IMG/VR virus record: IMGVR_UViG_3300020439_000098
Span: 1 to 21,799 of that record
DNA from: a virus
DNA: 21,799 bases
Reading direction: 5' to 3' (one strand)
Shown: in pieces, positions 3,249 through 11,473 of the stretch
Position numbering within the stretch: the stretch's first letter is position 1
How the letters are laid out: the number at the start of each line of letters is the position of its first letter
Program-made: the position numbers and the translations under genes
The notes under the pieces: model-generated
The model's database searches: none
Seen by the model: only the letters and a program-made list of their open reading frames with translations
What the model was told of the DNA's origin: nothing

Positions 3249-3776
3249 TTACCCTACAAATTCTTCGCCTGGCGTCCAAGAACAACCTGTGAGTCCACCC
3301 GCTTTCAATGCTTGAAGAGTTCTGAGAACTTCGTCTGCATTTCTTCCAGTGTCTAATGCATTCACAGATACGTGTTGGATAACTCTATCTTTATCAAAGA
3401 TAAAGGTTGCACGATAACACACACCTTCCTCTTCATTAACAATACCTAATTCATTAGATAGATTTAATCCACAGTCAGCTGCAAGTGTATGGTTGATATC
3501 ACCAATCAACTTATTACTTTGTTTCCACGCAAGTTTACAGAATTCATTGTCACCTGAAATACCAATTACGTTTGCCTCATCAACAAGAACATCCATTGCT
3601 TTGATTTCAGTAGGACAAATAAAAGTAAAGTCCTTTGGATAAAAGTATACTACTGTCCAATCGTGTTTGAGTGGTTGATATCCTTCATCGACAGTTACAT
3701 CGACAAATTCATTATTAGAATCAATTCCTTTTAATTTTATAGGTGGAAATTGATCACCTACTGTAAGTTGATACAT
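3249..3776 (-). CDS. Peroxiredoxin (AhpC/Prx1-type) encoded by the phage
   Basis: A 175-aa thiol peroxidase of the AhpC/TSA type, which reduces hydrogen peroxide and organic hydroperoxides in the cytoplasm. The active-site signature PKDFTFICPTE (residues 47-57) gives the PxxxTxxC motif with peroxidatic Cys54; the conserved Arg is R122 (CYRATF). A C-terminal GCSWTPGEEF (Cys165) matches the resolving-cysteine region of typical 2-Cys enzymes (VCPANWxPG in AhpC). Extra cysteines are at 80, 102 and 120. GGAG lies seven bases before the ATG. The gene has a near-perfect promoter of its own and is followed at once by gp55. I infer an auxiliary metabolic gene that protects the infected cell from oxidative stress; the reductant would have to come from the host or elsewhere in the phage. 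Confidence 0.93.
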   Translation of the reverse strand: MYQLTVGDQFPPIKLKGIDSNNEFVDVTVDEGYQPLKHDWTVVYFYPKDFTFICPTEIKAMDVLVDEANVIGISGDNEFCKLAWKQSNKLIGDINHTLAADCGLNLSNELGIVNEEEGVCYRATFIFDKDRVIQHVSVNALDTGRNADEVLRTLQALKAGGLTGCSWTPGEEFVG

Positions 3777-3803
3777 TACAAATCTCCATTTTTATTAACA
3801 AGT

Positions 3804-3832
3804 ATTATACCTGTTCTAACACCCTTTGTCAA
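3804..3832 (-). promoter_or_regulatory. Consensus sigma70 promoter for peroxiredoxin and gp55
   Basis: Minus strand: TTGACA (3827-3832), exactly 17 bases, TATAAT (3804-3809): both hexamers are full consensus. Predicted start near 3797, about 20 bases before the peroxiredoxin ATG, leaving room for its GGAG. The -35 sits inside the 3' end of the cytidylyltransferase gene. This is the strongest promoter by sequence in the window. Confidence 0.88.
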
Positions 3833-4229
3833 GGCGTTTTCGCAATTCAGACGTAGAAAATTCGTGTTTTCTTTCGTTATAGTAAATATCTATATCATTA
3901 TTACGACACCAATCTTTACCAGTAAAATCTTTCCCTCGATATTCCTCACCTATAATACGAACGTGAGGTCTAATCAATTGCATTACACCTAGTAGTTCTA
4001 TTTCGGTAGTATAAGGAACTATATGATCTACCCACTTAACCGCACGTAATTGTATGAACCGTTCAGATACAGTTTGTACGGGAGTATTTTTTTCGGGTCT
4101 ATCTATAGAGGGATCGATCTGTAATCCACAGATCAAATAATCGCATTGTTCTTTTGCTTCTTCTAACATTGTCACGTGTCCAGCGTGCAACAAATCAAAA
4201 GCAGAACAAGTAAATCCAATTCGTTTCAT
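3816..4229 (-). CDS. Cytidylyltransferase-like nucleotidyltransferase
   Basis: A 137-aa single-domain enzyme of the HxGH nucleotidyltransferase superfamily, closest in size and motifs to glycerol-3-phosphate cytidylyltransferase (TagD) and the nucleotidyltransferase domain of heptose pathway HldE/RfaE. HAGH is at residues 15-18 after a Rossmann strand (RIGFTCSAFDLL). The second substrate-binding loop is represented by RKHEFSTSELR (about 119-129), in place of the usual RTxGISTT. Such enzymes activate a phosphorylated sugar or alcohol with CTP or ATP; the substrate cannot be read from the sequence. It follows the 53-aa membrane protein with only a few bases between (TGA at 4233-4235, ATG at 4229). 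Possible roles are surface glycan or nucleotide-linked metabolism. Family is firm, substrate open. Confidence 0.85.
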   Translation of the reverse strand: MKRIGFTCSAFDLLHAGHVTMLEEAKEQCDYLICGLQIDPSIDRPEKNTPVQTVSERFIQLRAVKWVDHIVPYTTEIELLGVMQLIRPHVRIIGEEYRGKDFTGKDWCRNNDIDIYYNERKHEFSTSELRKRLDKGC

Positions 4230-4232
4230 ATG

Positions 4233-4394
4233 TCACCAGTTGTGTATTATATTTGCCATTATAAAAAAGCACGTAAGAAAATTAACACCCACAATGATAG
4301 TACGTAACATTGCAACATAATTATCATACGGTTCTGTTTTATCATCCGAGAACCCGCCCAAGGCGTATTTCCATATTGTCCATATCTTTTCCAT
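4233..4394 (-). CDS. Small single-span membrane protein (53 aa)
   Basis: The ATG overlaps the cupin stop codon (TAATG at 4392-4396), and the frame closes with TGA four bases before the next start. The protein begins MEKIWTIWKYALGGFSDDKT, has a polar middle, and ends with one hydrophobic segment (about residues 31-51, rich in I, V, L, F) and HNW. This suits a single membrane span with the N-terminus in the cytoplasm. The N-terminal WTIWKYxxGxFSD pattern resembles small conserved proteins of marine T4-like myoviruses as I remember them. Function unknown. The tight packing with the cupin and nucleotidyltransferase genes suggests co-expression. Confidence 0.7.
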   Translation of the reverse strand: MEKIWTIWKYALGGFSDDKTEPYDNYVAMLRTIIVGVNFLTCFFIMANIIHNW

Positions 4395-4726
4395 TAGTGG
4401 TTTCTCCCCCCATCAAATACACACACAAAGTATAACCCCAAGTGTCCTGTATTGAACACTCTATGATACTCACCATCTTCTATACAAACAACATCGCCTT
4501 CCGTAACAGGAAAACGTTCATCATCAATTTGCATCTCACCACTACCTTTAATAAAAAAATAGACTTCTTCTTGTCCACTATGGGAGTGTCCGTTGGTACA
4601 TTTGTTTGCACGTAGGAATGTACTACTCAATACAAGGTTATTACCAAATGTATTATCTTTTAGGGTGTAAGTATCATTATCCTTAATAATCTTACCACCA
4701 ATATCATTTATTGTAACTTTTTTCAC
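4394..4726 (-). CDS. Single-domain cupin protein
   Basis: A 110-aa beta-barrel cupin. Motif 1 is HSHSGQEEVYFFIKGSG (about residues 47-63), giving the two histidines and the glutamate of the metal site, and motif 2 is GDVVCIEDGEYHRVFN (77-92) with the third histidine, H88. Small cupins of this kind include sugar-phosphate isomerases, epimerase-like proteins and binding proteins, so the reaction cannot be named. The likely start is GTG at 4726; I see no good Shine-Dalgarno sequence and no better in-frame ATG. A plus-strand promoter (-35 at 4734-4739) begins only eight bases upstream, pointing away from this gene. It precedes a membrane protein and a nucleotidyltransferase, a grouping compatible with sugar metabolism. 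Confidence 0.85.
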   Translation of the reverse strand: MKKVTINDIGGKIIKDNDTYTLKDNTFGNNLVLSSTFLRANKCTNGHSHSGQEEVYFFIKGSGEMQIDDERFPVTEGDVVCIEDGEYHRVFNTGHLGLYFVCVFDGGRNH

Positions 4727-8482: not shown

Positions 8483-8511
8483 TTGACAATTCTTGCCCCG
8501 TCCTGTAGAAT
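8483..8511 (+). promoter_or_regulatory. Sigma70-type promoter for the DruA-like gene
   Basis: Plus strand: TTGACA (8483-8488), 17 bases, TAGAAT (8506-8511); start near 8518, 20 bases before the ATG at 8538, with GAGAGAAG as the ribosome-binding region. It has the same hexamers as the gp47 promoter. Confidence 0.82.
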
Positions 8512-8537: not shown

Positions 8538-9662
8538 ATGTTATTATCTAAAGAAGACGCTCTATACGCATCGAAAGTATTCAATGATTACTTCGGTCAG
8601 TTTGATCGTATAGACGCATACAATCGAAAAATCAAACTAGAGAGAATGGAATCTTTTCCAGATTCTCTGCCTGGCTTCGGCCCTGAGAATGACTTTTTTA
8701 ATACTGTCGATGTTCATCCATCTGAAATGAACTTTAAGATAGACAGTGTACCAATGCAACAGTTTCACCAATATCTAGAAATTGTTACATCTGCACCTGT
8801 AGAGATGTCAATTCCAGGCAAACAGATGAATCTGATAGTCAAAGAAACAACTACTAACACGGTAGTCGGTATGATTCGTTTCGGATCACCTACTATTAAT
8901 AGTAAACCAAGAAATACGCTGTTGGGACAACCTCTCGACACACTCAATCCTGAAGTAATGAAACGATTCAACGATTCGGTTATTATGGGATTCGCAATTG
9001 TTCCCGTACAACCTTTTGGGTTCAACTATCTTGGTGGTAAACTACTTTCCGCCATATGTTGTTCACACGAGGTTAGGGAACGCTTAAACAAGAAGTATGA
9101 TTCAAACATTTGTATGTTCGAAACAACTTCCCTGTATGGGTCTACCAAACAAATGTCACAGTACGATGGTATGAAACCCATACTCAGGTTTAGTGGTCTG
9201 ACAGACTCGAAGTTCTTACCACTCATCAATGATGATACTTTTCGTTCCTTGCACCAATTCTTTATAGACAGAAATGGTGGTGAACCTCTTGTACCTAAAG
9301 AGGCATCTTCACGTAAACTCAAGGTACAAACAAAAATGATTGGTATCATCAAAGCTTCTCTCAAAAATAATGAGGGGTATGATGAGTTCTGTCAGACCAT
9401 TTCTACTGCACTAGACCTTACACAAAGAAAACGTTCCTTCTATTCAACTTATGGATATGAGAACGTGATGGATTATTTGAATTTAAAAACGGACACATTG
9501 ATCAAGAAAGAAAACTTCGATAGATTCTACTTCGATAATCAAATTGAATGGTGGAAGAATAAAGCATCAAAGAGATATGATTCATTGAAATCGGATGGTA
9601 GACTACGAACAGTTCTTGAAACTTGGAATACTAACCCAGAAGATATTGACATTATCCGTTAG
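8538..9662 (+). CDS. DUF4338/DruA-like protein, possible GNAT fold
   Basis: A 374-aa protein, first of only two plus-strand genes. The core (about residues 108-222) shows VVGMIRFGSP, then RNxLLG, then the block FAIVPVQPFGFNYLGGKLL (152-170), CMFETTSLYGSTK (192-204) and YDGMKPILRFSG (209-220). This order resembles the DUF4338 family, known from the Druantia defence protein DruA, where a GxxxFxSP strand is followed by RFLILP...NLASxxL and LLETF...GTxY. The GGKLL turn followed by a helix is also what a GNAT acyltransferase uses to bind acyl-CoA. N- and C-terminal parts (1-100, 240-374) are charged and helical. I recall similar proteins in marine T4-like phages. Candidate roles are DNA or protein modification, or a decoy of host defence; none is proven. 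Confidence 0.8.
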   Translation: MLLSKEDALYASKVFNDYFGQFDRIDAYNRKIKLERMESFPDSLPGFGPENDFFNTVDVHPSEMNFKIDSVPMQQFHQYLEIVTSAPVEMSIPGKQMNLIVKETTTNTVVGMIRFGSPTINSKPRNTLLGQPLDTLNPEVMKRFNDSVIMGFAIVPVQPFGFNYLGGKLLSAICCSHEVRERLNKKYDSNICMFETTSLYGSTKQMSQYDGMKPILRFSGLTDSKFLPLINDDTFRSLHQFFIDRNGGEPLVPKEASSRKLKVQTKMIGIIKASLKNNEGYDEFCQTISTALDLTQRKRSFYSTYGYENVMDYLNLKTDTLIKKENFDRFYFDNQIEWWKNKASKRYDSLKSDGRLRTVLETWNTNPEDIDIIR

Positions 9663-9675
9663 TATGTGTTATAAT
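9646..9675 (+). promoter_or_regulatory. Sigma70-type promoter for bS21
   Basis: TTGACA (9646-9651) lies in the last codons of the DruA-like gene, followed by an 18-base spacer and TATAAT (9670-9675); a second TATAAT is at 9675-9680. Start near 9682 gives a leader of about 20 bases containing GAGG. This would let bS21 be expressed separately from the gene before it. Confidence 0.7.
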
Positions 9676-9682
9676 ATAATAG

Positions 9683-9690
9683 TATAAATA
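9683..9690 (+). promoter_or_regulatory. TATAAATA late-promoter box ahead of bS21
   Basis: Exact TATAAATA match. A gp55-directed start would fall at about 9696-9697, inside the GAGG (9694-9697), leaving almost no leader. It is either a weak or leaderless late start or a chance match in AT-rich DNA; the sigma70 promoter just upstream fits the gene better. Confidence 0.4.
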
Positions 9691-9701
9691 AGTGAGGTAT
9701 T

Positions 9702-10001
9702 ATGCGAAGAAATTTTAATAAAAACAGAAGACCTCAACGTCCTAAAAAGAAATTCTATCCTAAAGACGTTGGGTTAAAGGTTACGGTCAGAGACGGAAAT
9801 GTCGATGCCGCCCTAAGAGTATTGAAGAAGAAAGTCAAGAAGGCGAATCTAATTCAAGAAATCAAAGATCGAGAATTTTATCAGACTCGAAATCAAAAGC
9901 GTAGGATCGCAAAACAGAAAGCGATTAGACGTGCCAAAAGAACCAGAGAGAAGGAACTCGAAGCAGCTGCAAATTATCGCAGACAAGCAAACTGGTTATA
10001 A
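9702..10001 (+). CDS. rpsU: Viral ribosomal protein bS21
   Basis: A 99-aa homologue of bacterial ribosomal protein bS21, which sits on the 30S platform next to the anti-Shine-Dalgarno end of 16S rRNA and helps initiation. The bS21 core is clear at about residues 25-85: LKVTVRDGNVDAALRVLKKK, then KANLIQEIKDREFYQ and the basic tail QKRRIAKQKAIRRAKR. Bacterial bS21 is usually 65-75 aa; this one has an extra basic N-terminus (MRRNFNKNRRPQRPKKKF) and a C-terminal NYRRQANWL. Ribosomal proteins are rare in viruses, but bS21 is the one most often reported in them. GAGG lies before the ATG. It is last in the plus-strand island, with its own promoter and strong hairpins behind it. I infer that it enters host ribosomes and favours phage messages. 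Confidence 0.92.
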   Translation: MRRNFNKNRRPQRPKKKFYPKDVGLKVTVRDGNVDAALRVLKKKVKKANLIQEIKDREFYQTRNQKRRIAKQKAIRRAKRTREKELEAAANYRRQANWL

Positions 10002-10050: not shown

Positions 10051-10081
10051 AAAAAGGGGGACTTAACGTCCCCTTCTTTTT
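10051..10081 (+). terminator. Terminator after bS21, possibly bidirectional
   Basis: GGGGAC (10057-10062), loop TTAAC, GTCCCC (10068-10073), followed on the plus strand by TTCTTTTTA. On the minus strand the same stem is followed by TTTTT, so it can also stop capsid transcripts coming from the right. Confidence 0.8.
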
Positions 10082-10091
10082 ATTCAGAGAC

Positions 10092-10116
10092 AAAAAAAGG
10101 GAGTCCGAAGACTCCC
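10092..10116 (-). terminator. Terminator of the capsid operon
   Basis: Read on the minus strand: GGGAGTC, TTCG tetraloop, GACTCCC (10099-10116), then seven T (10092-10098). The UUCG loop closed by C-G is especially stable. It lies about 45 bases behind the gp23 stop. A weaker TTAGG/CCTAA stem (10126-10140) with a T-rich tract on the plus strand lies between it and gp23. Confidence 0.87.
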
Positions 10117-10159
10117 TTAAAAATGTTAGGTTAACCCTAATCTTTTTCTTATTACAGAC

Positions 10160-11473
10160 TTATGTCAAGATGTTAGTTACCTTGAAGATTCTGTAGTAAG
10201 GGTTGGTCTTAACAGCAGCAAGACCGTTAGCAGGTGTAGAACCAACAAATGGGTTTGAAGCCATTCCGTAACGAGTTTTAAACCCGATACGTGGTTGGAA
10301 GTTATCTTCACCAATTGCCTTAACCATTTGCAATGGTACGTAAGGACAATAGAACACACCAGCGTCATAAGGGTTAGACCCACGGTAACCAACAGTTACA
10401 TAGTCAGTATTTGCATACGGATCGATGTAAACTTTGATACGTCCGTTAAGTGTACCAGCGAATGTGTTACCAGTGTCATCAACGTTTAAGTTGGTATTCA
10501 TTGCAGGGCTGTAGTCAAGAGAACCTGAAGCTGCAAGTGCAGTAGCAACGTCTGAAGAACAGATAATAACATTACCTTTTCCACGTCTTGTTTCTTTTGC
10601 AATTACGTTTGCTTCACGATCAATTTGTACACCCAAGCCTTTGAATTTCTCAGCAGACCAACGACCATCAGCATCAGATGACATATTGAATATACCATTA
10701 GATGTAACGTTTGCTTGTTGAGCACCAGTTTTAGCTTGTGAGTTAATTGTACGAATTACTTCACGGTTGATTTCTGCAAGAATTTCTGTAGACAGAATAT
10801 TTGCAAGTTCTGTCTCAGCGTCAAGACCGTGAATTGCTTTAAGGTCTTGAGCAAGTTCTACAGTGTATTCAGCTTTAAGCGCACGAGAAACAGCAGTCAC
10901 AGTTGATTTCTCAATTGTGAAACCCATTTCGTGGAAAGATGAACCACCAGAAGAACCTAATGCTTCTGCATCATCAGTAGGCATACCACCAGCAAAGATG
11001 TCAGTAATACGAGCACCTTCTGAGTCTACGCCATTCCAACCTGAAGCGTTATCTGAATCGTGTGTTCCAGAACTATCACCAGAGAACTGAGTTTCAGCTT
11101 CGTTGAATAGTGCTTCACGGTTTGAAGTTGAACCACCTTGGTATCTTGCCTTCATAGCGAAGATAAGACCAGTTGGGCCATTCATAGGTTGAACACCAGC
11201 AACGTCATATGCGATGAGGTTAGGCATAGCACGGCGTACTAGTGAAATCAACACAGGGTTAAAGTTTGCAACAGATGAAGTGCTGTTGGCAGGAGCAGCG
11301 GCGTTCTCAGTTAAGAACCCTTGCATTGCAACACCTTCTTCGATCATTGCTTGTTCTTGGTTTTCAAGAACGGCAGCGGTTACGGCTTTTCTATAGTGAT
11401 CGCCGATAACGCCAGCGGACTCTTCGTTAAGAACGGGAGACCACTTTTCGATCAATCTATCGTAAGATTCCAT
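10160..11473 (-). CDS. gp23: gp23 major capsid protein
   Basis: A 437-aa T4-type major capsid protein (HK97 fold) that forms the hexamers of the head. Family landmarks include NFNPVLISLVRRAMPNLIAY and the following GVQPMNGPTGLIFAMKARY (about 70-108), and the C-terminal FKTRYGMASNPF. The N-terminal propeptide should be cut by the gp21 protease; FLTE-NAAAP (cut after Glu56) fits the known (L/I)xE rule. It is shorter than T4 gp23 (521 aa), as is usual for marine relatives. It is the last gene of the virion operon, 11 bases behind gp22, and followed by strong terminators. I see no TATAAATA box directly in front of it, so its late promoter must be non-canonical or further upstream. Confidence 0.97.
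   Translation of the reverse strand: MESYDRLIEKWSPVLNEESAGVIGDHYRKAVTAAVLENQEQAMIEEGVAMQGFLTENAAAPANSTSSVANFNPVLISLVRRAMPNLIAYDVAGVQPMNGPTGLIFAMKARYQGGSTSNREALFNEAETQFSGDSSGTHDSDNASGWNGVDSEGARITDIFAGGMPTDDAEALGSSGGSSFHEMGFTIEKSTVTAVSRALKAEYTVELAQDLKAIHGLDAETELANILSTEILAEINREVIRTINSQAKTGAQQANVTSNGIFNMSSDADGRWSAEKFKGLGVQIDREANVIAKETRRGKGNVIICSSDVATALAASGSLDYSPAMNTNLNVDDTGNTFAGTLNGRIKVYIDPYANTDYVTVGYRGSNPYDAGVFYCPYVPLQMVKAIGEDNFQPRIGFKTRYGMASNPFVGSTPANGLAAVKTNPYYRIFKVTNILT

Follow-up and report, generated by a model that had tools for sequence, protein, structure and literature searches.

The analysed window is a stretch of 21,799 nucleotides (IMG/VR record IMGVR_UViG_3300020439_000098, whole stretch) from a T4-like marine phage, in which terminase, sheath, tube, portal, gp21-23, gp55, UvsW/UvsY and gp47 are recognisable. 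These identities were assigned from protein matches and from the gene order shared with annotated relatives, the nearest of which, phage C48C1 and the Melnitz phages of Methylophilales, show 77-78% DNA identity to the window over short stretches only. Beside gp55, at 3249-4726, the window also carries a peroxiredoxin (AhpC/TSA), an RfaE-like cytidylyltransferase and a cupin gene, which are possible auxiliary metabolic genes. The Rfam scan of the window found no RNA family.

The gene for ribosomal protein bS21 (9702..10001, + strand; 99 aa, pI 11.6) lies directly downstream of a DruA/DUF4338-like gene of 374 aa (8538..9662, + strand; Pfam DruA 1.6e-10, phrog_19197 1e-154). The pair is inverted and placed between the tail tube gene and gp23, an insert that is absent from this position in C48C1 and Melnitz; no bS21 was detectable in C48C1. 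The convergent neighbour is the gene of the major capsid protein gp23 (10160..11473, - strand), with 77% DNA identity to the C48C1 major head protein gene. Two terminator-like hairpins lie between bS21 and gp23, an intrinsic one downstream of bS21 (10055..10083, + strand) and one for gp23 (10097..10118, - strand). The DruA-like gene has its own sigma70-type promoter, TTGACA-N17-TAGAAT (8483..8511, + strand, 11/12 match), and in the sister lineage, locus L102, the same gene is preceded by TTGACA-N17-TATAGT. The terminator listing of the window held no terminator-like site between the DruA-like gene and bS21, and the two are possibly co-transcribed. The DruA-like protein, whose Pfam family is Druantia-related, is also conserved in cyanophages and HTVC008M, where its gene sits in the replication cluster. 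The two genes as a general phage cassette were also considered and rejected, as a DruA-like homologue occurred at 0 of the 79 other loci of a broad bS21 scan.

The first-pass annotation had described the 99-aa product as a full bS21 core with about 25 basic residues in front and a C-terminal tail, and had proposed an HMM search and a structural prediction as checks. Both bear the description out. The protein matched Pfam Ribosomal_S21 (PF01165) over residues 27-78 (E 6.6e-14, 51.8 bits against a curated cut-off of 27) and NCBIfam TIGR00030 (2.6e-12, 46.4 bits against 28.95), and the reading frame matched PHROG 21469, 'ribosomal protein S21'. Within the core (9780..9935, + strand), the residues V27, V29, R30, A37, R39, K42-K44, E53 and Y60 are kept, following the family pattern VxVR, A-R-LKKK, E, Y. 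The AlphaFold2 model has the expected bS21 helices (34-48, 50-58 and 63-98) and a coil-like N-terminal arm, and in the Foldseek search of the PDB mitochondrial bS21 chains ranked best (E 8e-3, probability 1.00). The gene is thus a real member of the bS21 family. A tblastn search of the annotated phage collection with bS21 gave 0 matches at E 10, although Melnitz, HTVC008M and Mosig encode the protein; this blank is probably an artefact of low-complexity masking and was disregarded. The bS21 scan of genome contigs gave a single weak match, in a Bacilli MAG.

Upstream of bS21 there is a complete sigma70-type promoter, TTGACA-N18-TATAAT (9646..9675, + strand, 12/12 match), with an extended -10 TGn, whose score exceeded those of 100/100 shuffles of its own upstream region. 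The sister lineage L003/L102, in which the gene order is identical and bS21 is 74% identical, has TTGACA-N17-TATAAT at the corresponding site, so that both spacers fall in the 16-18 nt range taken for such promoters; the DNA separating the -10 element from the ATG has diverged there, while the -10 and the TGn are kept. However, the -35 element falls within the codons for the C-terminal DIDIIR of the DruA-like protein, and the protein of cyanophage S-SSM7 likewise terminates in IDIIR. Conservation of the -35 is therefore partly a protein constraint, and only the -10 and its position count as independent evidence for the promoter. Recurrence in a diverged lineage upholds the separate bS21 promoter of the first-pass annotation and, judged from these sequence comparisons, indicates a real, conserved promoter of the sigma70 type. 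In both lineages the DruA-like gene and bS21 each have such a promoter. Early expression by the host RNA polymerase is favoured by this architecture, and sigma70 promoters are treated as early by the authors of the Melnitz paper (PMC9004378).

The start codon is preceded by a GAGG Shine-Dalgarno core (9694..9697, + strand) 4 nt before the ATG. GGAG, GAGG or AGGA cores precede 17 of the 26 genes in the window, compared with 8% of random positions, in agreement with the earlier statement that most messages of this phage carry clear GGAG/GAGG sites. On the same count, a host of the Bacteroidetes style, free of Shine-Dalgarno sites, was considered and rejected.

The second expression signal that had been proposed for bS21, a late promoter formed by the TATAAATA box, is present as a motif (9683..9690, + strand), but its assigned role does not hold up. 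The box lies 11 nt from the ATG, whereas the other TATAAATA boxes of the window with a same-strand downstream gene are about 20-60 nt from the start codon. With the late start point usual in T4, a transcript from this box would have its 5' end inside or just ahead of the Shine-Dalgarno site. Moreover, TATAAATA is missing at the homologous site of L003/L102 and occurs within 100 nt upstream of 0 of the 61 other representative phage bS21 genes. In the window it is found five times against 1.9 expected, and the phage encodes the late sigma factor gp55; the box is also retained in the near-identical relatives L002/L004. These last two points would fit dual expression, early from the sigma70 promoter and late from the box, but with the box missing from the sister lineage and from the other 61 genes, and with its poor spacing, we do not accept late expression as part of the claim. 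The box is probably non-functional for bS21, and the suggestion that the protein is made both early and late is very improbable.

The N-terminal extension (residues 1-25; 9702..9776, + strand) is basic, with a net charge of about +8.5, and is without predicted structure (AlphaFold2 pLDDT about 60). In the comparison with L003, where synonymous sites are near saturation, dN was 0.14 for residues 1-25 and 0.17 for the core, and both parts are under purifying selection. The C-terminal tail (9957..9998, + strand) is poorly conserved, matching L003 at 7 of 15 positions and with a dN of about 0.5. Judged by the low dN of the arm against that of the tail, the arm is maintained, whereas conservation of the tail is not strong. 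The basic extension is not unique to this phage, as at least 11 residues precede the core in 37 of 62 representative phage bS21s. In solved bacterial bS21s no more than about 10 residues precede the core, and among the solved structures long N-termini occur only in the plant mitochondrial and plastid forms.

Several hundred bS21 relatives, of which at least 498 were confirmed, were found in IMG/VR, and they are carried by marine phages of different types. The census was based on 62 representative phage bS21 genes, including that of the window. In a tree of phage sequences built on few alignment columns, the window and L003 formed a pair (100/99) inside a 29-row group (89/92) of N-extended, often tRNA-linked bS21s. 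A tRNA gene ends 13-25 nt ahead of the bS21 start in 21/62 of the representative genes; these tRNAs are mostly Arg(TCT), with Gly(ACC) and Thr(TGT) as well. Examples are L016 (1338-1415) and about 20 IMG/VR loci, such as L024 (5906-5982) and L030 (5867-5943). This adjacency, recorded once in the Melnitz paper (PMC9004378), appears to be widespread.

One phage clade shows another arrangement, in which 13 distinct upstream sequences carry TTGACA-N17-TANNNN with its end 5-7 nt ahead of the bS21 start codon (L105, L111, L112, L114-L116, L121, L122, L125-L127, L129 and L130; also L045, L062, L087, L093 and L100). From this spacing a leaderless bS21 mRNA is predicted in the clade; the other promoters at these loci mostly have longer leaders. 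Permuted (two-piece) tmRNA genes lie a few kb from bS21 at three of the loci (L062 11221-11648, L087 11861-12294 and L093 9473-9906).

Starting from the family membership, the conserved promoter and the purifying selection, we consider it rather probable that the gene is a phage-adapted rpsU, transcribed early from a sigma70 promoter, whose product replaces host bS21 in the 30S subunit and shifts initiation in favour of the phage. A cellular rpsU would have been acquired by a T4-like marine phage and subsequently adapted. The host RNA polymerase would transcribe it from the sigma70-type promoter, possibly with read-through from the DruA-like gene, so that bS21 would probably be made from early infection onward. 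The protein may then displace its host counterpart on the 30S platform, adjoining the anti-Shine-Dalgarno region, with the flexible basic arm extending into the RNA-rich surroundings, and initiation on such subunits may be altered to the advantage of the phage. A bias of translation towards phage mRNAs is plausible. Counting against the early timing, bS21 of Bacteroidetes phages is transcribed late, along with the structural genes (PMC9723584).

The alternatives concern mainly what the protein does once in the ribosome. The bS21 of HTVC008M enters E. coli 70S ribosomes, and the purified ribosomes carrying it retained about 5% of their activity in vitro (PMC6375957). Since translation was nearly abolished in this heterologous ribosome, inhibition is a real alternative: phage bS21 would lower ribosome activity on most mRNAs and aid takeover of the host without favouring phage messages, and the conserved sigma70 promoter fits such early action. 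The assay was, however, heterologous, incompatibility being the cause suggested by its authors (PMC6375957), and the same ribosomes are still needed for the late proteins of the phage; host shut-off is unlikely, though a serious rival. It is somewhat easier to imagine, though still doubtful, that the gene merely supplements an exchangeable ribosomal protein that is in short supply in slow-growing oceanic hosts and leaves mRNA preference unchanged. The spread of the gene over different types of marine phages, the conserved core residues and the frequent neighbourhood of phage tRNA genes, themselves supply genes, agree with that explanation, but the conserved phage arm would be superfluous for it, and solved bacterial bS21s do without one.

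A more specific version of the preferred reading, an altered initiation, can be put forward only as speculation that we regard as quite unlikely. The recurrent arm, rich in Asn, Lys and Arg, would be a phage-specific addition that reprograms initiation and touches the mRNA or the 3' end of the 16S rRNA, while tRNA-linked, early or leaderless expression would keep bS21 synthesis independent of the altered initiation state. If so, these expression routes would shield the synthesis of bS21 from a state that bS21 itself creates. The extension is a defined, removable unit. The case bears on the question whether viral ribosomal proteins redirect host ribosomes or simply disable them.

Phage bS21 is a common gene, known already from both cultured and uncultured marine phages (PMC6375957, PMC7029224, PMC9004378, PMC9723584); what the window adds, an early-type promoter and an N-terminal arm kept by selection, is modest. 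The closest known case is the Methylophilales phage Melnitz EXVC044M, like the source of the window a T4-like marine phage of Kyanoviridae with an N-extended bS21 of the same class. Its RpsU is 41% identical to the bS21 described here and falls, via the close homologue L043, in the same region of the tree. In Melnitz, the gene lies behind a tRNA-Arg(TCT) gene and distant from the capsid genes (PMC9004378), whereas in the window it has no tRNA, has its own sigma70 promoter and adjoins gp23. The bS21 of Pelagibacter phage HTVC008M belongs to the same protein family, but it has 67 aa, lacks the N-terminal extension, is 28% identical and lies behind a tRNA-Gly; its entry into E. coli ribosomes is the only demonstration in the literature of incorporation of a phage bS21 (PMC6375957). 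In the unrelated freshwater Bacteroidetes phages described by Chen et al. 2022, bS21 is, as in the window, encoded on the other strand from the capsid and structural genes near it (PMC9723584). Unlike the window, with Shine-Dalgarno sites at its genes and a sigma70-type bS21 promoter, these phages infect hosts usually without such sites and express bS21 late with the capsid genes (PMC9723584); a conserved early-type promoter within a late-gene region predicts a timing different from theirs.
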